Below are positions 1 to 19,183 of a stretch of DNA of 64,000 nt, in pieces. Source of the DNA: Jiangella asiatica (lineage in GTDB: Bacteria; Actinomycetota; Actinomycetes; Jiangellales; Jiangellaceae); assembly GCF_004349065.1 (NCBI RefSeq), contig NZ_SMKZ01000001.1, positions 310,001-374,000 on the forward strand. Reading direction: 5' to 3'. Numbering within the stretch: position 1 is the stretch's first letter; the number at the start of each line of letters is the position of its first letter. Below the pieces are notes generated by a model. It was not told the origin of the DNA, made no database searches, and was given only the letters and a program-made list of their open reading frames with translations. Both the position numbers and the translations under genes were made by a program.

Positions 1-681
1 CTCCTCGGGCCGGCGACGGTACGCCGTCTACCCCCGCCGCCAGGGCAGCGGCCGCACCTCGCGGCGCCAGAGCCAGCAAATCTGCCGTTGAGCGGGCGGC
101 CGGAGCCCGCTCACCTGTCGTCGGCCGGGTGGCTGGAGCCAGTCGGTCTGCCGCTGGCCGGGGCGGCCGCGTACGCCGATCCCGTCCGGGCGGTGATCAT
201 CGCGCACAAGGAGCGCGGGCGCCTCCCACTGTCCCGGCCGCTCGGCGACGCGCTGGCGGTGGCTGCCACGGCGCTGCTGGAGTCGGACCTCGGGTGCGGT
301 CACGATGGGCGGCCCGTGGCGCTGGTGCCGGTGCCGTCGAGGCGCTCCGCGGTGCGTCGGCGCGGTCACGACCCCGTCCTGCGCACCGCTCGCCGGGCGG
401 CCGCGACGCTGCGCCGGTCCGGGCAGGCGAGCACCGCCGTCGCGGCGCTTCGGCACCGGCGGAAGGTGGCCGACCAGGCCGGCCTCGGGCGGTCGGCGCG
501 CGAACACAACCTGCACGGCTCGCTGGCGGTGCGCCGTGGCGCCGCCGACCTGATGCCCGGGCGGTGCGTGCTGCTCGCCGACGACATCGTGACGTCGGGG
601 GCCACGCTGCGCGAGGCTGTTCGCGCGCTGGCCAGCTCGGGTGTCGAGCCCTGTGGGGCGGTGGTGGTCGCGGTGGCCTGA
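1..681 (+). CDS. ComF family phosphoribosyltransferase (5' end outside or near window edge)
   Basis: Predicted double-zinc-ribbon/phosphoribosyltransferase protein of the ComF family, linked to DNA uptake or nucleotide salvage. The PRPP-binding loop LLADDIVTSGATL lies near the C-terminus, preceded by the family motifs PVPSRRSAVRRRGHDP and QAGLGRSAREHN. The frame is open back to base 1. A TTG at 88 would give 197 residues, but the cysteine-rich zinc domain normally found at the N-terminus is not visible, so the true start is probably upstream of the window. It lies directly before hpf, the usual actinobacterial order comF-hpf-secA. Confidence 0.75.
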   Translation, partial: LLGPATVRRLPPPPGQRPHLAAPEPANLPLSGRPEPAHLSSAGWLEPVGLPLAGAAAYADPVRAVIIAHKERGRLPLSRPLGDALAVAATALLESDLGCGHDGRPVALVPVPSRRSAVRRRGHDPVLRTARRAAATLRRSGQASTAVAALRHRRKVADQAGLGRSAREHNLHGSLAVRRGAADLMPGRCVLLADDIVTSGATLREAVRALASSGVEPCGAVVVAVA

Positions 682-4153: not shown

Positions 4154-7006
<2,853 letters not shown>

Positions 7007-7242: not shown

Positions 7243-8283
7243 ATGACACACGCACCAGGCAGCCACGAACCCACCGACACTCGATCGTCCCGCTCGATCA
7301 GGAGAAAGGCCGTCGCGCTCTGTGCGGCGGCCTTCGTCGTGGTCGGGCTCGTCCCCACAGCGACGGCGGCGGCCGCGGGCGGCGCTGAGGCAGGCGTCGC
7401 CGCTCAGGCGTCTGTACCCGCGGCGGCGGCGCGGACGACGACCGCCGCGGAGGCCCTGCCGGACGCCGTCGTCGCCCTGGGTGACTCGTACTCGTCCGGC
7501 CTGGGCGCCGGCGGCTACCAGAACCACTGCGACCACACGCCGCAGGCGTGGATCCACCTGCTGTTCGGCGGGGCGGTCGCCGACCGGACGCTGCTCGCGT
7601 GCTCCGGTGCCACCATCTCCGACGTGGCCACACAGGTCGGGCAGTTGGCGGCGCTGCCGGGCGAGTCCGGCGACCGGCTCATCACGGTGACCGTCGGCGG
7701 CAACGACGCGGGCTTCGCCGACGAGCTGGTCAACTGCCTGGTCTCCTTCGTGTCGTGCACCAGCCGCGAGGCGGCGCTGACCGCCCGCATCCAGGCCCTG
7801 CACCAGCCGCTGGTCGACCTGTACAACTCGATCCAGGCCGCAGCGCCCGGCGACGAGGTCATCGTCGGCGGCTACCCGATGCTCGTGCCCGACCCGGCCG
7901 TCCGCAGCGACTGCCCGGCGCTGACGAGCTTCCTGTCCACCTCCGAGCGCCGGATGATCCGCCGGCTCGGCGTCCTGCTCAACGACGTCGTCGACGGTGC
8001 CGCCGCCGCGGCCGGCGTGCGGTCGGCGTCGTCCCGGGTGGAACAGACGTTCGACGGGCACGAGGCATGCGCCAACGGAGCCGGCGACTGGCTCTACGGG
8101 CTCAAGCTCTCGTTCGGCGACGGTGCCGCCACGGCCGAGCCGTCCGAGGCGGCGAGCGCGACACCGCCCTCCCACCCGCAATGGGAGATCGTCTCGTCAT
8201 TCGTGCGCGACTCCTTCCACCCGACCGTCGCCGGGCAGGCCGGCTACGCCTCGGCCTTCGAGGCCGAGTGGGCCGCCGGCTGA
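7243..8283 (+). CDS. Secreted SGNH/GDSL hydrolase (esterase/lipase)
   Basis: Predicted exported ester hydrolase of 346 residues. The N-terminus has a basic stretch then a hydrophobic segment (about 22-45, AVALCAAAFVVVGLVPTATA), a signal peptide. The SGNH blocks are visible: GDSYSSG at about 80-86 with the nucleophile Ser, Gly at GAGGY, GGND near 150, and the catalytic DSFHP near the C-terminus. Cysteines are consistent with extracellular disulfides, as in Streptomyces SEST-type esterases. Its 3' end overlaps the convergent Rv3235 gene by 87 bases. Confidence 0.85.
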   Translation: MTHAPGSHEPTDTRSSRSIRRKAVALCAAAFVVVGLVPTATAAAAGGAEAGVAAQASVPAAAARTTTAAEALPDAVVALGDSYSSGLGAGGYQNHCDHTPQAWIHLLFGGAVADRTLLACSGATISDVATQVGQLAALPGESGDRLITVTVGGNDAGFADELVNCLVSFVSCTSREAALTARIQALHQPLVDLYNSIQAAAPGDEVIVGGYPMLVPDPAVRSDCPALTSFLSTSERRMIRRLGVLLNDVVDGAAAAAGVRSASSRVEQTFDGHEACANGAGDWLYGLKLSFGDGAATAEPSEAASATPPSHPQWEIVSSFVRDSFHPTVAGQAGYASAFEAEWAAG

Positions 8284-8922
8284 CCGACGCTTCCCGGGCC
8301 GCCGCGTCGACGGCCTCTCCACCAGGTCGAACGCGGTGCATACCCAGCGGTCGTCGACGGCCTCCAACCGAACGGCGACCGCCGACACCCGCCGTCCCAG
8401 CTGCACGACGACACACGTCTCGGCGACGGTGTCGGTGACCCGGCAGGCGCGGATGGTCCGCACCCGGGGACGGGCCGTGGGCGTGGCCGGCTGGTCGGCG
8501 GCGCGGCGGGCCAGGGCCCGGAAGACGGCCTCATCGGTCCACCGGACCAGCTGCTGGAGCGACCGGCGGCCGTGTACGCCCTCGATCGCGGCCTGTGCCA
8601 GCGTGGCCGTCCAGCGTCGCGGGTCCGGTAGCGCGGCGGGTGCCGCCGCGGCAGGGGTGCTTCCCTCGAACGGCAGGTCGTCGACCACGAGTGCCGGCGG
8701 TTCGGCCGGCTGCGCGGACGGCCCGACCGAGACCGCCAGCGTGCCCTGGACGTGACCGCTCGGTGCCCGGCTCCGTTGGACCGCCGACGTGGCCGGCACG
8801 ATGCCGAGCTCGTCGTCGAAGGGCGGCTCGCATACCGGCAGCGGCAGCCGGCGCACCCGCCCGCCGTCGACTCGGCCGGTCGAGGCCGGTCCGGCGGCGG
8901 CATGGCTGGTCGTAGTGGGCAT
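8197..8922 (-). CDS. Rv3235 family protein
   Basis: A 241-residue protein resembling the actinobacterial Rv3235 family, found next to secA in many genomes. The N-terminal signature LPLPVCEPPFDDE is followed by a disordered Pro/Ala/Ser stretch, then a compact C-terminal domain (about 110-215, ending VSAVAVRLEAVDDRWVCTAF). Function is unknown; the position suggests a link to secretion or the envelope. ATG at 8922 is preceded by AGGAG at good spacing. The last residues overlap the convergent SGNH gene, so the tail beyond FDLVERP may be a read-through extension. Confidence 0.7.
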   Translation of the reverse strand: MPTTTSHAAAGPASTGRVDGGRVRRLPLPVCEPPFDDELGIVPATSAVQRSRAPSGHVQGTLAVSVGPSAQPAEPPALVVDDLPFEGSTPAAAAPAALPDPRRWTATLAQAAIEGVHGRRSLQQLVRWTDEAVFRALARRAADQPATPTARPRVRTIRACRVTDTVAETCVVVQLGRRVSAVAVRLEAVDDRWVCTAFDLVERPSTRRPGKRRSAGGPLGLEGRGVAGLPGDGRVEGVAHE

Positions 8923-9130
8923 CAGGGCTCCTGTCCGCGGGCCGTTGGGGTCAGCAGGATCGAAACCGCCGCGCCCGAGCGCGGTCAACAGAGTCCGAAG
9001 CGCGGGCCAGTTGCCCGACCGGACGGGCTAGTCGGGCTAACGCGGGCGATGACCGGCCCGGTCGAACGGGCAACGCGACACCTGTCACGCATGCATGGCA
9101 GGAACGCCGTTGTTACATCATCATTAACAG

Positions 9131-10207
9131 ATGGAGGCCATCGGTAACACCGGTCGCCAGCCCGGTCGCCGTCCGAGTGGAAAACACCGGACCGGCGGCT
9201 CGACACGCGCGGCGGACCCGGGCGCTTTGAGCCGCTCCGACGACGGGCCGCGGCGGGGCCTCGTGCTCGGCGGCGGTGGCGTGCTGGGCGCGGCGTGGAT
9301 GGTGGGCGCGCTGAGCGCGATCGAGGACTCCACCGGCGTCGACCTGCGCTCCTTCGACTACATCCTGGGCACGTCCGCGGGCTCGGTCATGGCCGCGCTG
9401 TTGGGGGCTGGGCTCAACGCCAGCCAGCTGCGCGACCACCAGCTGGGCCGGTCCATCGACGGGCCGCTGGCAGATCACTCCTGGGACTACGACACCGCGA
9501 CCGGCGGTTCCCGCCCGCAGCTGCCGCGGCTGGGTGTCGGCTCGCCGGCCATGGTCAGGAACAGTGTGCGCCGGTTGCGCCGCATGCCGCCGACTGCCGT
9601 GCTGTCGGCGCTGTTGCCAGTGGGCCGCGGGTCGCTCGACGGCATCGGCGAGCTGATCGGCGCGGTCACCGGGCCAGATGCCGGCTGGTCGCCGCACCCA
9701 GGCGTGTGGATCGTGGCGATGGACTACGAGACCGGCCGGCGCATCCCGTTCGGCCGCCCGGGCGAGCCGCGGCCGTCGTTGCCGCAAGCCGTCATGGCAT
9801 CGTGCGCCATCCCCGGCTGGTTCGCGCCGGTCGTCGTCGACGGACACCGCTACGTCGACGGCGGCACCTGCTCGGCCACGTCGGTGGACCTCATGGGCGG
9901 CCTCGACCTCGACGAGGTCTACGTGGCCGCGCCGATGGTCTCCTTCGAGACCGACCGGCCCCGGCCGCTGTTGTCGCGGCTGGAACGACGGTGGCGGCGT
10001 CGCTGCACCCGCCGCTGCCTGCACGAGGCTCAGAAGCTGCACGCCCAGGGCACCGAGGTCACCATCCTCGGGCCCGGGCCGGAGGACCTGGCCGCCATAG
10101 GTGCCAACGTCATGGACACCGGCCGTCGCCTGCGCGTCCTGGAGACGTCGCTGCGGACGTCGGCGGCGACGTTGGCGCGCGGGCGGTCGTGGGCCGACGC
10201 CGGGTGA
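9131..10207 (+). CDS. Patatin-like phospholipase
   Basis: Serine acyl hydrolase of the patatin family, 358 residues. It has the oxyanion glycine-rich loop GLVLGGGGVLGAAW, the nucleophile elbow GTSAG (about residue 78), and the catalytic aspartate motif VDGGT (about 243), the Ser-Asp dyad of the family. No signal peptide or membrane segment is seen, so a cytosolic or peripheral lipase/esterase is likely. The first 38 residues are low complexity and the true start might be later. It is a single gene before pruA. Confidence 0.85.
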   Translation: MEAIGNTGRQPGRRPSGKHRTGGSTRAADPGALSRSDDGPRRGLVLGGGGVLGAAWMVGALSAIEDSTGVDLRSFDYILGTSAGSVMAALLGAGLNASQLRDHQLGRSIDGPLADHSWDYDTATGGSRPQLPRLGVGSPAMVRNSVRRLRRMPPTAVLSALLPVGRGSLDGIGELIGAVTGPDAGWSPHPGVWIVAMDYETGRRIPFGRPGEPRPSLPQAVMASCAIPGWFAPVVVDGHRYVDGGTCSATSVDLMGGLDLDEVYVAAPMVSFETDRPRPLLSRLERRWRRRCTRRCLHEAQKLHAQGTEVTILGPGPEDLAAIGANVMDTGRRLRVLETSLRTSAATLARGRSWADAG

Positions 10208-10292
10208 GCGAGACTCGTCGGCGATACTGGCACTGAGCGGGACCACCTGACAGAGACGAGACACCACGACGTCGACGTCCACGATCGGAGCT

Positions 10293-11942
10293 GTGAGTAC
10301 CATGCCTGGCGCCCTTGATGCCGTGACCAACGTTCCCGCGCCCACCAACGAGCCGGTGCTCACGTATGCGCCGGGCACGACGGAACGCACCGAGCTCGAG
10401 AACGCGCTGGCCGGCATCGCCTCCCGCCACCACGAGCTGACCTGCACCATCGGCGGCGACCAGAAGTTGGGCAGCGGGCCTGAGGCTGAGGTCGTCCAGC
10501 CGCATGCGCGCGCCAAGGTGCTGGGGACGTTCCGGCACGCCGGCACCGACGACGCGCAGGCGGCCATCGACGCAGCGCGCGAAGCTGCGCCGGGCTGGCG
10601 CTCGCTGTCCTACGACGACCGCGCCGCCGTCTTCCTCAAGGCCGCCGAGCTGCTGGCCGGCCCGTGGCGGCAGACCCTCAACGCCGCGACCATGCTGGGG
10701 CAGTCGAAGACGGCCGCGCAGGCCGAGATCGACGCCGCCTGCGAGCTCATCGACTTCTGGCGGTTCAACGTCGCGTTCGGCCGGCAGATCCTCGCCGAGC
10801 AGCCGGTCGCCAACTCGCCGGGTGTGTGGAACCGGGTCGAGTATCGGCCGCTGGAGGGCTTCGTCTACGCCATCACGCCGTTCAACTTCACCGCGATCGC
10901 CGGCAACCTGCCCACCGCGCCGGCGCTGATGGGCAACACCGTCATCTGGAAGCCCAGCCCCACCCAGCAGCTCGCCGCGCACTACACCATGCGGCTGCTC
11001 GAGGCGGCCGGGCTACCGCCGGGCGTCATCAACCTGCTGCCCGGTGACGGGCTGGCGGTCTCCGAGGTGGCGCTGGCACACCCCGACCTCGCCGGCATCC
11101 ACTTCACCGGGTCGACGGCGACCTTCCAGAAGCTGTGGCGCACGGTCGGCGAGAACATCGGGTCGTACCGCACCTATCCGCGGCTGGTCGGCGAAACCGG
11201 CGGCAAGGACTTCGTGCTGGCCCACCCCAGCGCCGACCCGGACGTCCTGCGGACGGCGCTGGTCCGTGGCGCGTTCGAGTACCAGGGCCAGAAGTGCTCC
11301 GCGGCCTCGCGCGCCTACGTCCCGCGCAGCGTGTGGGCCCGGATGCGCGACGACTTCCTCTCCCTCACCGAGTCGCTGTCGATGGGCCCGGTCACGGACC
11401 TGTCCAACTTCATGGGCGCGGTCATCGACGAGCGCGCGTTCGCCAAGCACACCGCAGCCGTCGAGCGCGCCAAGGCGGACCCGGCGGTCGACATCGTCGC
11501 GGGCGGCTCCCTCGACGACAGCGAGGGCTGGTTCGTCCGGCCTACCGTGATGGAGAGCACCGACCCGGAGAACGAGATCTTCTCCACCGAGTACTTCGGC
11601 CCGCTGCTCGGCGTCTACGTCTACGACGACGCGGACTTCGACGCCGTCGTCGGGCAGGTCGAGAGTGTCGCGAAGTACGCGCTGACCGGCGCCATCATCG
11701 CGCAGGACCGGACGGCTATCGCTTATACCACAGAGGCGCTACGCTTCGCAGCCGGTAACTTTTACGTCAACGACAAACCAACCGGAGCGGTTGTCGGACA
11801 GCAGCCATTCGGTGGAAGTCGGGCTAGTGGGACGAACGACAAGGCGGGTTCGGTGCAGAATCTTCTACGGTGGGCGAGCACTAGGGCTTTGAAGGAGACG
11901 TTCGTGCCGCCGACCTCGCACGAATACCCGCACATGGGTTGA
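10293..11942 (+). CDS. pruA: L-glutamate gamma-semialdehyde (1-pyrroline-5-carboxylate) dehydrogenase
   Basis: Second step of proline degradation: oxidises glutamate-5-semialdehyde to glutamate with NAD. The 549-residue aldehyde dehydrogenase has the cofactor segment VIWKPSPTQQ, HFTGSTATFQ, and the catalytic cysteine in EYQGQKCSAASRAY. The C-terminal PFGGSRASGTNDKAGS block is also typical of P5C dehydrogenase. GTG 10293 or ATG 10302 may start it. No proline dehydrogenase gene is adjacent. The last 80 codons (from about 11700) use many A/T-ending codons, unlike the rest of the gene. Confidence 0.93.
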   Translation: MSTMPGALDAVTNVPAPTNEPVLTYAPGTTERTELENALAGIASRHHELTCTIGGDQKLGSGPEAEVVQPHARAKVLGTFRHAGTDDAQAAIDAAREAAPGWRSLSYDDRAAVFLKAAELLAGPWRQTLNAATMLGQSKTAAQAEIDAACELIDFWRFNVAFGRQILAEQPVANSPGVWNRVEYRPLEGFVYAITPFNFTAIAGNLPTAPALMGNTVIWKPSPTQQLAAHYTMRLLEAAGLPPGVINLLPGDGLAVSEVALAHPDLAGIHFTGSTATFQKLWRTVGENIGSYRTYPRLVGETGGKDFVLAHPSADPDVLRTALVRGAFEYQGQKCSAASRAYVPRSVWARMRDDFLSLTESLSMGPVTDLSNFMGAVIDERAFAKHTAAVERAKADPAVDIVAGGSLDDSEGWFVRPTVMESTDPENEIFSTEYFGPLLGVYVYDDADFDAVVGQVESVAKYALTGAIIAQDRTAIAYTTEALRFAAGNFYVNDKPTGAVVGQQPFGGSRASGTNDKAGSVQNLLRWASTRALKETFVPPTSHEYPHMG

Positions 11943-11979
11943 GCGCACAGCGAACTACAGACATGAGGTGTCTAGCGTG

Positions 11980-12555
11980 ATGGATGACCGGCTGTCGACC
12001 AGGCCGTATGTCGCACGAGCGGTGCGGTTGCTGTCCCAGCCCCGTCGGAGTCCGGCGGACGGAGCTCTCGTCACCGCGGTGGCCCTGCGGCTGGCCTCGC
12101 TCGACAGCGACAGCGAGACGGCCGAGCGTCTCGTCGCCGCGTCCGACCGGGTGATGACCGGGGTGGCCGGGCTCATCGGCGAACAGGCGCCCGCGTCGGA
12201 CTGGAGCGACACCGCCGAAGCGCTGGCGCTCATGATCGCCGGGCGGCCGCTGCAGCGCGGCCACCTCATGGCGGCACGGTCCACGCTGGGCACGGCCGAC
12301 AAGGTCATCGACCTCTCCGACCGGCTGCGCCGCACCGCCGAGGAGCCCATCGACCGCGACGACCTCGGGCGCGCGCTGGCCATGGCCGTCACCGGCCCGG
12401 CCGAGCTGGCCGAAGCGCTGCTTGAGCGCGAGAACACCGAGAGCACACCGGCGGCTCCCGAGGCCCCGGCGCCGCGGCAGCCCGGTCGCCGGGCCGGTGC
12501 GGCCGAGCGCAACGTCTCGCTGCGGGCGCTCGACGGCGGCGTACCCGGTCGTTGA
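11980..12555 (+). CDS. Hypothetical helical protein downstream of pruA
   Basis: A 191-residue protein with no domain I can name. It is mostly Ala/Leu/Arg-rich predicted helix (RPYVARAVRLLSQPRR, TAVALRLASLDSDSETAERL) with a basic, Pro-rich tail (about 150-191). It starts 37 bases after pruA stops, with GAGGTG upstream, so co-transcription with pruA is likely. GTG 11977 is an equally possible start. A PruA-associated accessory role is conceivable but there is no direct evidence. Confidence 0.6.
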   Translation: MDDRLSTRPYVARAVRLLSQPRRSPADGALVTAVALRLASLDSDSETAERLVAASDRVMTGVAGLIGEQAPASDWSDTAEALALMIAGRPLQRGHLMAARSTLGTADKVIDLSDRLRRTAEEPIDRDDLGRALAMAVTGPAELAEALLERENTESTPAAPEAPAPRQPGRRAGAAERNVSLRALDGGVPGR

Positions 12556-12615
12556 AAGGGCCCGGCTCCACGTCGATGATCGACCGGGTGCTACCGCCAC
12601 GGGAAATGAGCTGGT

Positions 12616-13110
12616 TCAGCGCTGGCCGGCGAGCCACGACCGGCCGACCTGCTCCTCGATCTTCGCCGCCTCGGTCAGGCCCTGATGCACGGCCTGCTCG
12701 ATCTTGCCGCCCACCAGTGGCACCGACGCCTTCACCGTCGCCGTGATGGTGACGGTGCTGCTGGCGCCGTTGCTGCTCAGGGACATGGTGCCAGTGCACT
12801 TGACCGGCGCGCCGATCATGTCCAGGTGGATGCTGCCGCTCCGCGACCCGTCCGGCGCGGCCGGCTCCCAGACGTCGCGCTGCTGGATGTCGATGGTGTC
12901 GCCGACGAACCGGCGCACGAAGTCGGGCACGTCCGGCGGCATCACTCGCTTCAGGTCGATGGTGACGCGGTCGCCATCACGGCTGACCGACACCTCGTGC
13001 CGCAGTGCCTTCGCGGCCGTGGTCTTGCGGGCGATGTAGGCCTCGTCGGTCAGCATCGCGAAGACAGTCACCGGATCGGCGTCGAAGCGGAGCTCGCTGT
13101 ACAGGTCCAT
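12616..13110 (-). CDS. DUF2505 domain-containing protein
   Basis: A 164-residue protein covering the DUF2505 domain (MDLYSELRFDADPVTVFAML ... GKIEQAVHQGLTEAAKIEEQ), a START/SRPBCC-like fold of actinobacteria. The beta-rich middle and long C-terminal helix are consistent with a ligand-binding cavity; the ligand is unknown. ATG at 13110 is used because the family similarity begins there. It is divergent from the tryptophan dioxygenase gene with only 32 bases between the two starts, so the promoters overlap. Confidence 0.8.
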   Translation of the reverse strand: MDLYSELRFDADPVTVFAMLTDEAYIARKTTAAKALRHEVSVSRDGDRVTIDLKRVMPPDVPDFVRRFVGDTIDIQQRDVWEPAAPDGSRSGSIHLDMIGAPVKCTGTMSLSSNGASSTVTITATVKASVPLVGGKIEQAVHQGLTEAAKIEEQVGRSWLAGQR

Positions 13111-13142
13111 GGCCCCCAATCCTGACCCATACGCTGGACCTC

Positions 13143-13967
13143 GTGACACACGACCACGACATCAGGGTGACGGAGGCGGCCATCGAACCGCCGTCCGCAC
13201 ACTTCGGCGAGGACGGTGCCCGTCTCACCTACGGTACCTACCTTCGCCTCTCCGAGCTGCTCGACCAGCAGCGACTGGAGACCGACGCTCATGATGAGCT
13301 GCTGTTCATCACCATCCACCAGGTCTACGAGCTGTGGTTCAAACAGCTGCTGCACGAGGTGGAAGCCGCCCGCGACGCGATGTTCGACGACCGGCTGTGG
13401 TGGGCCCGGCACCTGCTGAAACGCGTGCACGAGATCGAACGGATCCTGATCGAACAGGTCGGCGTCCTGGAGACGATGACGCCGCAGGACTTCCTGCAGT
13501 TCCGAGCCCAGCTGGCGCCGGCCAGCGGCTTCCAGTCCGTGCAGTTCCGCGAGCTGGAGTTCATCTCCGGCGCCAAGGACGAGGCGTTCGTGCAGCGTTT
13601 CCGGGGTCTCACCGAGGACGAGCGCTCCCGGCTGCGCCGCCGGCTGGACGAGCCGACCCTGTGGGACGCGTTCCTCGCCGTCCTGCGTACGCACGACCTG
13701 CCGGCCGGGTCCGACGACGAGGTCGGCGCGTCTCTGCGGATGGCCGCGCACGACCGCGCCGAGTTCGGCGACGTCTGGGAACTCGCGGAGGCGCTGCTGA
13801 CCCACGACGAGATGGCCGCCGGTTGGCGAGCCCGCCACGTCACCATGGTCGAGCGCATGATCGGCACCAAGACCGGCACCGGCGGTTCGTCCGGCGCCAC
13901 TTACCTGCGCAGCCGCCTCGACCTGCGCTACTACCCCTCGCTCTGGGAGCTCCGCTCCTGGCTGTGA
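13143..13967 (+). CDS. kynA: Tryptophan 2,3-dioxygenase
   Basis: Haem dioxygenase that opens the indole ring of L-tryptophan to N-formylkynurenine. At 274 residues it has family length. Family blocks are LTYGTYLRLSELLDQQ, DELLFITIHQVYELWFKQLL (distal His region), and the C-terminal HVTMVERMIGTKTGTGGSSG substrate-binding loop. GTG at 13143 gives the usual N-terminus. No kynureninase or formamidase gene lies nearby, so the rest of the kynurenine pathway must be elsewhere. The first of the 86-bp palindromic elements follows 25 bases after the stop. Confidence 0.93.
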   Translation: MTHDHDIRVTEAAIEPPSAHFGEDGARLTYGTYLRLSELLDQQRLETDAHDELLFITIHQVYELWFKQLLHEVEAARDAMFDDRLWWARHLLKRVHEIERILIEQVGVLETMTPQDFLQFRAQLAPASGFQSVQFRELEFISGAKDEAFVQRFRGLTEDERSRLRRRLDEPTLWDAFLAVLRTHDLPAGSDDEVGASLRMAAHDRAEFGDVWELAEALLTHDEMAAGWRARHVTMVERMIGTKTGTGGSSGATYLRSRLDLRYYPSLWELRSWL

Positions 13968-13992
13968 CCCCCACCCGCCCCGTCGGCCTCGC

Positions 13993-14078
13993 AATGATCA
14001 CGTTCAGCACGAAATCTCGTGTCGCACCAGGATCGCAAGCCTTGTGATGCACGGGTGATCCTGCTGAACGTGATCATT
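13993..14078. repeat. 86-bp palindromic element, copy A
   Basis: The terminal inverted repeats AATGATCACGTTCAGCA (13993-14009) and TGCTGAACGTGATCATT (14062-14078) match perfectly over 17 bases. The interior has an imperfect palindrome, CACGAAATCTCGTG, and a CAGGATC/GATCCTG pair. Reversed, it aligns along its whole length with copy B at 24800-24885. It lies between kynA and the NAD-GDH gene. It has no coding capacity; it could be a MITE-like or REP-like element. Confidence 0.85.
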
Positions 14079-14287
14079 TCGGGTGACGACGCTGCGTCGA
14101 CGTGGGGAGATCACGGCGCTGTTGGCGGCAGCACCGCCGCACCGTAGCCACAGCGAACCAACGCCGTTCCACAGCCAAGGGGATGATCATGGAAGCGGGG
14201 GTACAGGGAGCGCATGGAAGCGCGAGCTACTAATGTCTGAGACGTTCCGCACAACGGCGTGCGGAGTGTCGCACCGGGGGTTGGTGG

Positions 14288-17200
14288 ATGATGCGTAATC
14301 GGCTCGACGAAGCCAAGTCCGAGCTCCTTGCCAAGGCCGCGCTGGTCGGCGACCGAGGTTATCGTGACGAGGACGAGGCGTTCCTCCGGCGCTACTACCG
14401 GCATGTCGCCGCCGAGGACCTCGTCGACCGCGACGTCGTCGACGTCTACGGGGTCGCCGCCTCGCACCGTCGTTCGGCCCAGCTCCGGCCGCAAGGCACC
14501 GCCGTCGTCAACGTCTACACGCCGACCATCGACGAGCACGGGTGGGCCTCCGGGCACACCATCGTCGAGGTGGTCATCGACGACATGCCGTTCCTGGTCG
14601 ACTCCGTCACCATGGGGCTGTCGGAGCACGGGTACGCGATCCGGCTGGTCGTGCACCCACAGCTGGTGGTGCGCCGCGACATCACCGGCCAGCTGGTCGA
14701 GATCAGCGACCTCAACGAGAACGATCCCCGCCGCGACGCGGACACCATCGTCGAGTCGTGGATGCACGTCGAGATCGACCGCACCGACGACCCCGAGGAC
14801 CAGGCTGTCATCGAGCAGCTGCTGCGCGACGTGCTGCGTGACGTGCGCGAGGCGGTGGAGGACTGGCCGCGGATGCGTCAGCGCGCCACCGAGATCGCCG
14901 ACGAGCTGGAGAAGCCGCCGGCGCCCGTCCCGCAGCCGGAGGTCGACGAGGCGCGTGAGCTGCTGCGCTGGCTCGCCGACGACCATTTCACCTTCCTCGG
15001 CTACCGCGAGTACCTGCTCGACCAGGTCGACGGCGAGGACGTGCTGCGCGCGGTCACCGGGACCGGCCTGGGCATCCTGCGCTCGGACCAGGACCTGTCC
15101 GGGTCGTTCGCGAAGCTGCCGCGCGAGGTGCGCGCGAAGGCCCGCGAGAAGCGGCTGCTGGTGCTGACCAAGGCCAACTCCAAGGCGACGGTGCACCGCC
15201 CGGCGTATCTCGACTATGTCGGGGTCAAGTTGTTCGACGACGCCGGCGAGGTGATCGGCGAGCGGCGCTTCCTCGGGCTGTTCACGTCGGCGGCCTACAC
15301 CGAGAGCGTCATGCGCATCCCGGTGCTGCGCCGCAAGGTGCAGGAGGTCATCGAGCAGGCCGGGTTCGCGCCGTCGGGCCACTCCGGCAAGGACCTCCTG
15401 CAGGTGCTGGAGACCTACCCGCGCGACGAGCTGTTCCAGATCCCAGCCGATGAGCTGCTGCCGACGGCGCTGGCCGTCGTGCACCTGCAGGAGCGGCGCC
15501 ACCTGCGGATGTTCATCCGCCGCGATGACTACGGCCGCTACCTGTCGATCCTGGTCTACCTGCCGCGCGACCGCTACAACACCGACGTCCGCGAGCGCAT
15601 CCAGCGCATCCTGCTGGCAGCCACCGAGGGCGACTCCATCGACTTCACCGCCCGGGTGGGCGAGTCGGTGCTGGCGCGGCTGCACTTCGTCATCCGGATG
15701 GGTCGCGACCAGGAACTCCCGGAGATCGACGTCTCCGCGCTGGAGAAGCAGCTGGTCGCGGCCACGCGCTCCTGGACGGACGAGCTGTCCGACGCGCTGG
15801 CCGAGCAGGTGGGCGAGGAGGGCGCGGCGAAGCTGCTGCGGCGCTACCGTGGCGGCTTCCCCGAGGGCTACAAGGAGGACTTCCCGGCGCGCACCGCCGT
15901 CGCGGACGTGCGGCGCCTGGAGGACCTGCCCGCCGACGACGGCCTGGGCATGAACCTGTACCAGCCGGTCGGCGGCCTGGCCACGGACCGGCGCTTCAAG
16001 ATCTACCGCACCGGCACGCCGATCTCGCTGACCCAGGTGCTGCCGATCCTGTCGCGGATGGGCGTGGAGGTCGTCGACGAGCGGCCGTACGAGATCGCCC
16101 GCCGTGTCGGCGACACCGAGTCCACCGCCTGGATCTACGACTTCGGGCTGCGCTACCAAGGTCTGCGCGCCGCCGACGCCGACCGTCTCAAAGTGCTGTT
16201 CCAGGACGCGTTCGTCGCGGTGTGGCGTGGCGACGCGGAAAGCGACGGGTTCAACGCGCTCGTGCCGCAGGCCGGGCTGTCGTGGCGGCAGGCGTCCATC
16301 CTGCGGGCGTACGCCAAGTACCTGCGCCAGGCTGGCTCGACGTTCAGCCAGAACTATCTCGAGGAGGCGCTGTCCGGGCACGTCGAGGTCGCCCGGATGC
16401 TGGTCGACCTGTTCGAGGTGCGCTTCGACCCCGAGCGCGCCGCCGCCGACGACGACGGACGGCGCGCGCGCCAGGCTGCGGCCGAGCAGGTGAACGGCCG
16501 CATCGAGGAGGCCCTGGACCAGGTGGCCAGCCTCGACCAGGACCGCATCCTGCGCTCGTTCCTGCGGTTGATCAACGCCACGCTGCGCACCAGCTACTAC
16601 CGCGGCGCCCTGGGCGGGCCGCAGACCGTCACCAGCTTCAAGCTCGACTCCCGCTCGCTGCCGGAGCTGCCCGAGCCGCGCCCGAAGTACGAGATCTGGG
16701 TGTACTCGCCGCGGGTCGAGGGCGTCCACCTGCGCTTCGGCGACGTCGCGCGCGGCGGGCTGCGTTGGTCCGACCGTCGCGAGGACTTCCGCACCGAGAT
16801 CCTCGGCCTGGTCAAGGCGCAGGCGGTGAAGAACTCCGTCATCGTCCCGGTCGGCGCCAAGGGCGGTTTCGTCGGCAAGCGGCTGCCCGACCCCGCGGTC
16901 AACCGCGAGGCGTGGCTGGCCGAGGGTGTGGAGTGCTACAAGACGTTCATCCGCGCGATGCTCGACATCACCGACAACCGTGCGGCCGACCGCAGCGTCG
17001 TCCCGCCGCCGCAGGTGGTCCGGCACGACGGCGACGACCCCTACCTGGTGGTCGCGGCCGACAAGGGCACGGCGTCGTTCTCCGACATCGCCAACGAGGT
17101 GTCGCGCGAGTACGGCTTCTGGCTCGGCGACGCGTTCGCGTCGGGCGGGTCGGCCGGCTACGACCACAAGGCCATGGGCATCACCGCCCGCGGCGCCTGG

Positions 17201-19183
17201 GAGTCGGTCAAGCGCCACTTCCGGCAGCTCGGCCGCGACATCCAGAACGAGGACTTCACCGTCGTCGGCGTCGGCGACATGTCCGGCGACGTGTTCGGCA
17301 ACGGCATGCTGCTGTCCGAGCACATCCGGCTCGTGGCCGCGTTCGACCACCGCCACATCTTCCTCGACCCCGACCCGGACGCGGCGACGTCGTATACAGA
17401 GCGCCGCCGGCTGTTCGAGCTGCCGCGGTCGAGCTGGGAGGACTACGAGCCCAAGCTCATCAGCGAGGGCGGCGGCGTGTTCCCGCGCTCGGCGAAGACC
17501 ATACCGCTGACAACCGAGGTCAAGCGCGTGCTGGGCATCGACGAGCAGGCGGAGTCGATGAGCCCGCCCGAGCTCATGCACGCCATCCTGGGCGCGCCGG
17601 TCGACCTGCTGTGGAACGGTGGCATCGGCACGTACGTCAAGGCCAGCACCGAGTCGCAAGCCGAGGTCGGCGACAAAGCCAACGACGCCATCCGGATCAA
17701 CGCCGACGAACTGCGGTGCAAGGTGGTCGGTGAGGGCGGCAACCTCGGCCTCACCCAGCGCGGCCGCATCGAGTTCGCCCTGAAGGGTTCGGACGGCCGC
17801 GGCGGTCACATCAATACCGACGCCATCGACAACTCCGCCGGCGTCGACACTTCCGACCACGAGGTCAACATCAAGATCCTGCTCGACGGGGTGGTGCGTG
17901 CCGGCGACCTCACGGAGAAGCAGCGCAACCAGCTGCTGGCCGAGATGACCGACGAGATCGCCGAGCTGGTGCTGGCCAACAACTACGGACAGAACGTCGC
18001 GCTGGCCAACGGCACCTTCCAGGCGGCCAACCTGGCGCACGTGCACCGCTCGTACCTGGCCAAGCTGGAGCGCAAGGGCCTGCTCGACCGCCAGCTCGAG
18101 GCGCTGCCCACGGACCGGCAGCTGGCCGAGCGCATCAACGCCGGCAAGGGCCTGTCCAGCCCGGAGCTGTCGGTCGTGCTCGCATACACCAAGAACCTCA
18201 TGTACGAAGAGCTGCTGGCCAGCGGCATGCCCGACGACCCCTACCTGAGCGCCGCCCTGCACGCCTACTTCCCCAGCGCGCTGCGCGAGCGCTACCCGAA
18301 CCAGATCGACGAGCACCCGCTGCGCCGCGAGATCATCACCAACGTCGTCGTCAACGAGCTGGTGAACACGGCCGGGACGACGTTCGCCTACCGGCTGGGC
18401 ATGGAGACCGGCGGCTCGGTCGAGGACCTCGCCCGCGCGCACACCGTCGCCGACGTCGTCTTCCGCATGCCCGAGCTGATGACCGCGGTGAAGGAGCTGG
18501 ACAACGTCGTCGCCGACGAGGTCCAGATCCGGATGCGCCTGGAGGGCCGCACCATCACCGAGCGCGCTACTCGCTGGCTCGCGGTCAACCGGCGTCCGCC
18601 CATCGACATCGCCTGGCAGATCGGGTTCTTCGAGGAAGCCATCGCCCGGTTGCTGGTCGCCCTGCCGAAGGTCCTGGTCGGCCGCGAGCTGGACCTGTTC
18701 CAGGAGCGGCAGCAGTCGCTGCTGGAGGCCGGGGTCCCCGAGCCGCTGGCCACGCGGGTCTCGGTGCTGCCGCCGGCGTACTCCGGCCTGGGCATGGTGG
18801 AGAACTCCCTCGCCACCGGCACCGACCTGCTCGAGGTCGCGCGGGTCCACTTCACCCTGGGCGCCTTCCTCGAGCTCGGCCGGCTGCTGGAGCGCATCGT
18901 CTCCCTGCCGCGGCACGACCGGTGGCACACCATGGCACGGGCGGCGCTGCGCGACGAGCTGCACGCGCTGCAGGCCTCGCTCACCGCCCAGGTGATCCAG
19001 CACACCGAGGAGGACGCCGAGCCGCAGGCCAGGGTGGAGACGTGGGCGCTACAGGACGACGTGGTCGTCGGGCGGACGCAGGAGATCCTGCGCGAGATCG
19101 TCGAGAGCGACAGCTTCGACCTCGCCCGGCTGTCGGTCGGACTGCGCGCCGTCCGCGGCCTGCTCCGTCCCGCCGCCGGCTGA
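14288..19183 (+). CDS. gdhB: NAD-specific glutamate dehydrogenase, 180-kDa type
   Basis: Catabolic oxidative deamination of glutamate to 2-oxoglutarate. The 1631-residue length is that of the large L_180 family, with a long N-terminal regulatory region containing ACT-like segments, a catalytic core with KGGFVGKRLP (about 857), GTASFSDIANEVS (about 927) and the NAD-binding VGVGDMSGDVFGNGM (about 993), and a helical C-terminal region. Start is ATG 14288 or 14291. It is a single gene. Together with pruA it would carry proline carbon into the TCA cycle; a second, small glutamate dehydrogenase lies at 27.1 kb. Confidence 0.93.
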   Translation: MMRNRLDEAKSELLAKAALVGDRGYRDEDEAFLRRYYRHVAAEDLVDRDVVDVYGVAASHRRSAQLRPQGTAVVNVYTPTIDEHGWASGHTIVEVVIDDMPFLVDSVTMGLSEHGYAIRLVVHPQLVVRRDITGQLVEISDLNENDPRRDADTIVESWMHVEIDRTDDPEDQAVIEQLLRDVLRDVREAVEDWPRMRQRATEIADELEKPPAPVPQPEVDEARELLRWLADDHFTFLGYREYLLDQVDGEDVLRAVTGTGLGILRSDQDLSGSFAKLPREVRAKAREKRLLVLTKANSKATVHRPAYLDYVGVKLFDDAGEVIGERRFLGLFTSAAYTESVMRIPVLRRKVQEVIEQAGFAPSGHSGKDLLQVLETYPRDELFQIPADELLPTALAVVHLQERRHLRMFIRRDDYGRYLSILVYLPRDRYNTDVRERIQRILLAATEGDSIDFTARVGESVLARLHFVIRMGRDQELPEIDVSALEKQLVAATRSWTDELSDALAEQVGEEGAAKLLRRYRGGFPEGYKEDFPARTAVADVRRLEDLPADDGLGMNLYQPVGGLATDRRFKIYRTGTPISLTQVLPILSRMGVEVVDERPYEIARRVGDTESTAWIYDFGLRYQGLRAADADRLKVLFQDAFVAVWRGDAESDGFNALVPQAGLSWRQASILRAYAKYLRQAGSTFSQNYLEEALSGHVEVARMLVDLFEVRFDPERAAADDDGRRARQAAAEQVNGRIEEALDQVASLDQDRILRSFLRLINATLRTSYYRGALGGPQTVTSFKLDSRSLPELPEPRPKYEIWVYSPRVEGVHLRFGDVARGGLRWSDRREDFRTEILGLVKAQAVKNSVIVPVGAKGGFVGKRLPDPAVNREAWLAEGVECYKTFIRAMLDITDNRAADRSVVPPPQVVRHDGDDPYLVVAADKGTASFSDIANEVSREYGFWLGDAFASGGSAGYDHKAMGITARGAWESVKRHFRQLGRDIQNEDFTVVGVGDMSGDVFGNGMLLSEHIRLVAAFDHRHIFLDPDPDAATSYTERRRLFELPRSSWEDYEPKLISEGGGVFPRSAKTIPLTTEVKRVLGIDEQAESMSPPELMHAILGAPVDLLWNGGIGTYVKASTESQAEVGDKANDAIRINADELRCKVVGEGGNLGLTQRGRIEFALKGSDGRGGHINTDAIDNSAGVDTSDHEVNIKILLDGVVRAGDLTEKQRNQLLAEMTDEIAELVLANNYGQNVALANGTFQAANLAHVHRSYLAKLERKGLLDRQLEALPTDRQLAERINAGKGLSSPELSVVLAYTKNLMYEELLASGMPDDPYLSAALHAYFPSALRERYPNQIDEHPLRREIITNVVVNELVNTAGTTFAYRLGMETGGSVEDLARAHTVADVVFRMPELMTAVKELDNVVADEVQIRMRLEGRTITERATRWLAVNRRPPIDIAWQIGFFEEAIARLLVALPKVLVGRELDLFQERQQSLLEAGVPEPLATRVSVLPPAYSGLGMVENSLATGTDLLEVARVHFTLGAFLELGRLLERIVSLPRHDRWHTMARAALRDELHALQASLTAQVIQHTEEDAEPQARVETWALQDDVVVGRTQEILREIVESDSFDLARLSVGLRAVRGLLRPAAG

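Follow-up and report, generated by a model that had tools for sequence, protein, structure and literature searches.

Functional elements that overlap coding sequence have reportedly been recognized in RNA viruses through reduced synonymous variability (PMC4227794). The locus described here, at the 3' end of the pruA gene of Jiangella asiatica, resembles those cases in that synonymous sites are conserved where a second function would overlap coding; it differs in lying on a bacterial chromosome, and in that lineages which have lost the gene provide an independent check, free of coding constraint. A further parallel comes from Mycobacterium smegmatis, likewise a high-GC actinomycete, in which transcription starts inside coding sequence are common: 995 internal starts were reported in 12% of genes, excluding those assigned as primary starts of the downstream gene (PMC6448022). 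The evidence in M. smegmatis is transcript mapping, whereas that in Jiangella is evolutionary, and the excerpts of that report used for this comparison describe for its internal starts neither survival of an element after repeated loss of its host gene nor a strong codon-usage footprint. In the spacers of Buchnera, according to the parts of the study drawn upon here, purifying selection keeps ribosome-binding sites, terminators and small RNAs amid gene decay (PMC3164680). The retention of short functional sequences while genes decay is common to both cases. Buchnera, however, represents genome reduction in a symbiont, while Jiangella is free-living with a large genome and retains the defined tail of a lost gene, in an element that, unlike the Buchnera spacers, can be dated before the loss through intact genes. 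The general kind of phenomenon is thus known, both as signals inside coding sequence and as functional spacer sequence kept during gene decay. No description of this particular element was found in the open-licence literature searched and, as far as that literature goes, the way it joins a codon-usage footprint to parallel losses of the host gene is new.

The window (the whole stretch of DNA analyzed, 64,000 nucleotides of J. asiatica) contains an intact pruA, whose product matches TIGR01236 over residues 19-548 with 802 bits (cut-off 613.6). The best two-class split of its 550 codons separated codons 15-474 (10335-11714; GC3 0.959, 441/460) from the other 90, i.e., the first 14 and the last 76 with the stop included (GC3 0.633). 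The likelihood ratio of this split was 67.6, as compared to a maximum of 18.2 among 100 codon shuffles, these being scanned on a coarser grid and with a minimum segment longer than that applied to the gene itself. The best breakpoint fell at 11714/11715. The last 76 codons alone have a GC3 of 0.632, and 28 of them, counting the stop, end in A or T. Among seven genes examined (7243-19183), pruA was the only one with a 75-codon window below a GC3 of 0.81, its lowest window (0.64) starting at codon 475. The preliminary description had reported, from a hand count of about 25 A/T-ending codons in 70, an abrupt change of codon usage at this end of the gene, after codons ending nearly always in G or C. 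Scanning of GC3 along the gene confirmed the change (0.96 to about 0.63), the count and the composition of the preceding codons; the position of the patch also stood, except for its left edge, given as 11700. The statement that the protein remains a normal P5C dehydrogenase holds as well, since the C-terminus is regular and the family score is high. The features of the locus are collected in Table 1.

Table 1. Features at the pruA 3' end and the adjoining gene p, in coordinates of the window.
Feature	Position	Strand	Remarks
pruA, L-glutamate gamma-semialdehyde (P5C) dehydrogenase, 549 aa	10293..11942	+	TIGR01236 equivalog, Pfam Aldedh
Low-GC3 patch, last 76 pruA codons including stop	11715..11942	+	GC3 0.63 vs 0.96
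Module A, left conserved part	11716..11760	+	Core 11737-11760 varies at 4/24 columns in 8 orphans
Spacer A-B, evolves freely in orphans	11761..11801	+	11761-11797 varies at 19/36 columns
Module B (block B), 71-bp core, nearly invariant in genus	11802..11872	+	7/71 columns vary in 8 orphans
Spacer B-C	11873..11918	+	Shortened by deletions in G005, G008, G001, G011
Ribosome-binding region of p	11945..11979	+	GAGG at 11965-11968
Gene p, coding for a helical protein of 191 aa; presumed to be the element's target	11980..12555	+	In 20/22 family genomes

The distribution of the patch was analyzed in relatives of the strain. In a protein search of 60 related genomes, full-length PruA was detected in three of the 12 Jiangella genomes (G003, G006 and G000, the latter being the species of the window itself), while a search with the patch alone recovered its DNA in 11 of the 12. 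Eight genomes (G001, G004, G005 and G007-G011, termed "orphans" below) carry the patch without the rest of pruA: codons 1 to about 464-474 are gone, and the patch adjoins the same 191-aa gene p. The gene order is a patatin gene, the patch within ~100 bases (judged by eye) and then p. Of the genomes named here, G006 is from J. aurantiaca, G007 from J. endophytica and G009 from J. muralis. In the remaining genome, G002, the patch, p and the patatin gene were all not found, and its assembly of 440 contigs may miss the locus; its sole match to the patch query lies inside a PutA-like frame. The patatin gene, p and the genes for a DUF2505 protein and tryptophan 2,3-dioxygenase (TDO) occurred together (9131-13967 in the window) in all 10 Jiangella genomes read. 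A mobile element carrying a replacement pruA 3' end was considered and dropped because the orphans are syntenic, with patatin upstream and p, DUF2505 and TDO downstream.

The junctions of the deletions differ. By eye, similarity to pruA begins at about codon 464 in G007 and at about codon 475 in G001 and G011. In the latter two genomes the stop codon of the patatin gene directly adjoins the patch near 11716, such that the left limit of the DNA kept coincides with both the GC3 break and the left edge of module A. In the tree of the neighboring gdh gene, the intact G006 falls within the orphans, and branches with strong support require two changes, which implies at least two losses of pruA, unless G006 regained the gene. 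The pruA sequence itself places G006 beside G000 and G003, and its divergence is ordinary (0.85 nucleotide identity to G000), so nothing points to its reacquisition from a close donor. The sequences thus point to at least two parallel losses of pruA in which the same remainder was kept, with regain in G006 as the alternative.

The orphan patches do not read as a remnant that still encodes protein. In the old pruA frame, the first possible start codon lies inside block B in all eight; G007 has a stop just before block B, and single-base indels interrupt the frame in G001 and G011. In the remaining orphans the old frame is open, but it offers no start codon ahead of block B. Neither a coding remnant nor a small ORF was supported in any of the six frames across 11 species.

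Variation among the orphans is distributed very unevenly along the patch. Block B was far less variable than the four-fold sites of p (7/71 vs 46/88 variable columns; Fisher 9.5e-9, a guide rather than an exact value, since the columns share one phylogeny). Pairwise identity over 11798-11871 was similarly high at the three former codon positions (0.953, 0.969 and 0.930), as compared to 0.838 at third positions of p (codons 16-140). The spacer between A and B, in contrast, was about as variable as the four-fold sites of p (19/36 vs 46/88), and G001 and G011 carry their single-base indels there; a terminator-like hairpin on the minus strand also lies inside the patch (11779-11793; one found, 0.3 expected). 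In the region of the second spacer (11872-11918), 796 gapped comparisons were counted in the orphan alignment. The conserved stretch then runs on into the ribosome-binding region of p (11949-11979; one of 31 columns variable in orphans) and into the first codons of p, and 19 of the 20 aligned family sequences have GAGGTG ahead of p (GAGGAG in G014). The conservation of block B was judged from the alignment among the orphans rather than from identity to G000. At two sites of the block (11825 and 11837) the latter departs from every orphan, and because of such private changes the per-window identity to G000, which is highest at 4.6-6.6 and 17.1-17.4 kb and leaves block B unremarkable, is misleading. 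The longest invariant stretches between the window and the orphans (at least 7 of 8 aligned) were 56, 55 and 47 bases at 5153, 5023 and 5930, respectively.

A corresponding signal was observed in intact pruA genes. Between Jiangella and Haloactinopolyspora (three vs two genes, the latter from G018, which is named, and from G016, a metagenome bin with the same genus label), the synonymous identity of codons 503-527 was 0.931 against 0.677 overall, ranking first of 525 windows; by observed/expected ratio this window ranked sixth, the top being the overlapping window 505-529. In the same comparison, A/T-ending codons were kept in 54/60 comparisons over codons 501-525, as opposed to 22% before codon 476. 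Within the Phytoactinopolyspora-type set (six genes: G012, G015, G017 and G019-G021), the best window by observed/expected ratio was codons 508-532 (2.01), and window 503-527 ranked 24th. Between Jiangella/Haloactinopolyspora and Phytoactinopolyspora, the ratio for window 503-527 was 0.89 and thus not above expectation. This argues for lineage-specific versions of the element: either the block turned over between the two lineages, or the lineages may hold different elements. The split also accounts for the modest rise in the mixed profile of 11 family genes, in which the ratio for codons 501-525 was 1.22, similar to many other windows, whereas the three Jiangella genes alone gave 1.52, the highest window there. 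At module A (codons 475-499) no synonymous excess was observed in intact genes (ratios of 0.92, 1.03 and 1.00), and the evidence from intact genes therefore concerns block B and the gene end, not module A. Being visible in intact genes, the element can be placed before the loss of pruA.

The association of the patch with p was examined in 30 of the full-length pruA loci found in the protein search. Twelve of these, all from Jiangellaceae, have p as the next gene; the 18 without p comprise 17 from other families and the family member G013. The last 76 codons showed a GC3 drop of 0.138-0.317 in 11 of the 12 loci with p, representing four genus groups, as compared to a GC3 difference of -0.045 to +0.041 in all 18 loci without an adjoining p. 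In the exception, G014, p lies directly after pruA, the drop is 0.057 and there is no block B, from which it follows that p can exist without the element. In the orphans, the patch is directly upstream of p in eight of eight. The spacer between pruA and p measured 73, 205 and 100 bases in G018, G017 and G015, respectively, and 27-43 bases in the six other family genomes listed.

The p gene gave a single match in each of 20 of the 22 genomes of the family, Jiangellaceae (Jiangella, Haloactinopolyspora and Phytoactinopolyspora by named records), and two weak partial matches elsewhere among 393 genomes drawn from the class. Its product matched no family in Pfam (E <= 0.01) or NCBIfam (E <= 1), and its fold matched no PDB entry by Foldseek at E <= 0.001; the single phmmer match among PDB sequences had E 0.83. 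The AlphaFold model has a mean pLDDT of 78, with seven helices and a low-confidence tail, and this C-terminal tail carries a motif (LRA-DGG-PGR pattern) that is invariant at most positions in 20 sequences. On position and co-occurrence, the element can be assigned to p with moderate confidence.

Comparison among the species shows the patch to behave as a nucleotide sequence under selection, independently of reading frame; it likewise shows that the patch, observed solely at loci in which p follows, survives deletion of the rest of pruA. Of the two origins that the preliminary description had put forward, a selected nucleotide element is strongly supported by the near invariance of block B in orphans (7/71) and by its top synonymous identity in intact genes. 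The further suggestion that such an element acts for the next gene gains moderate support from the GC3 drop in 11/12 loci with p and 0/18 without it. We consider it likely that the patch is the control region of p, i.e., its promoter or operator and early leader, overlapping pruA. The pruA 3' end of Jiangellaceae would then perform two jobs, encoding the C-terminus of PruA and serving as a cis-acting control region that holds the promoter, the operator and the start of the 5' leader of p. Module A, module B or both may bind RNA polymerase and a regulator, and transcription would proceed across the variable B-C spacer as far as the conserved GAGG and ATG of p. The need to keep the control sites would override the preference for GC-rich codons and lower GC3.

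A promoter in the patch is plausible. No sigma-70-like consensus was detected in 11500-12100, and the hexamer TACGCT of module A (11740-11745), which fits TANNNT in all 11 genus sequences and lies 18 nt after CTATCG/CTGTCG/CTGTTG (11716-11721), is a weak promoter candidate, judged by eye; its TANNNT is not kept family-wide. The nearly invariant 71 bp are long for a single promoter. No second copy of the element was found in its own genome, where only short matches appeared (E 0.04 or weaker). A search with block B in the 12 genus genomes returned 11 syntenic copies and otherwise short matches only; the three of these that were viewed, one each in G007, G009 and G010, lie in long open frames and look like chance. 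It is possible, though we hold this more tentatively, that the regulatory element arose inside a coding gene and outlived it more than once, and that the unstructured 71-bp block is a site of an undescribed type (a sigma-factor or regulator array, or a site acting at the RNA level) that controls the Jiangellaceae-specific p.

A PutA-like ORF (1063-1180 codons open) gave a second match in all eight orphans, as well as in G006 and G002, and was not found in G000 or G003 in the same search. For the PutA-like fragments of G009 and G006, PutA was the best NCBIfam match, below the cut-off because the fragments are truncated, and Pfam showed the aldehyde-dehydrogenase domain alone. In lineages with such a bifunctional enzyme, pruA would become redundant and be deleted, and deletions past ~11716 would damage expression of p and hence not be tolerated. 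The losses are most simply explained if PruA became redundant once PutA had been gained, and G006, with both PruA and a PutA-like enzyme, looks like an intermediate. Four genomes of the family, assigned to Phytoactinopolyspora where they have a name, contain a second full-length gene resembling pruA at 70-74% identity (G015:C1:919535, G019:C6:134657, G020:C21:106938 and G021:C31:150427; one read through a TGA).

Several other readings of the patch were weighed against control of p. The patch might be a small regulatory RNA or a structured, riboswitch-like 5' leader of p, given that its nucleotides are conserved without coding. In the region from A to the start of B (~100 nt), folding surpassed that of 60 dinucleotide shuffles (z <= -2) in four of 11 species on the plus strand (G006, G004, G010 and G008) and in G007 and G008 on the minus strand; for the genus, RNAalifold gave z -5.7 relative to column shuffles. 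Block B, however (11798-11875), folded less than its shuffles on the plus strand in 11/11 (z +0.58 to +2.20) and gave z -0.44 to +1.74 on the minus strand, such that the RNA structure proposed earlier is unsupported there. Moreover, the predicted folds of the A region differ from species to species, covariation terms were near zero for both strands in the genus and family alignments, and the family-wide consensus fold was weak (-36 kcal/mol vs -88 for the genus). Rfam returned no family at E up to 10, apart from two chance-level matches that both lie outside the patch, and nothing at the gathering score in four loci. We therefore regard action at the RNA level, the chief rival to control of p from DNA sites, as unlikely. 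It is highly improbable that p is controlled by a leader peptide encoded in block B, from a shifted-frame ORF of about 18-39 codons whose ATG lies at 11836. By eye, the ATG is present in 10 of the 11 genus sequences, but it reads ACG in the species of the window itself, the position of the stop differs between species and three of the six orphan substitutions in the stretch alter a residue of the shifted frame.

The element might instead act on something other than p, such as a DNA site for a chromosome-organizing or recombination protein. The absence of a promoter consensus, the length of block B and the wide variation among species in the distance from B to p would fit such a site; furthermore, DUF2505 and TDO are always present beyond p, so that the patch keeps company with these genes as well as with p. 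Against this, the patch was not seen in any of the 18 pruA loci without p, its conservation extends over the ribosome-binding region to the first codons of p, and it is single-copy in the genome; accordingly, we rate a target other than p as quite improbable. The other origin in the preliminary description, gene conversion from a lower-GC donor, and with it a horizontally acquired patch, is ruled out as the main cause and retains almost no probability. The sharp GC3 edge would suit it, but the patch occupies the same place in 11 of the 12 intact genes followed by p, across four genus groups, and its A/T-ending codons were conserved (the 54/60 given above) rather than ameliorated. Its retention after gene loss also contradicts such an origin, and the conserved patch in the orphans together with its shared place in relatives argues for a selected nucleotide element.

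Control of p from within pruA would mean that a codon-usage break inside one gene can mark the control region of the next. The locus offers a clean natural test, in which eight species lost the protein-coding role of this DNA and kept the rest, and it predicts where deletions may end once a gene is redundant. It also suggests a genome-wide screen for hidden control regions, combining 3' GC3 drops in high-GC bacteria with orphaned gene tails in their relatives. Finally, it draws attention to p itself, a strongly conserved protein specific to the Jiangellaceae and without a known family.
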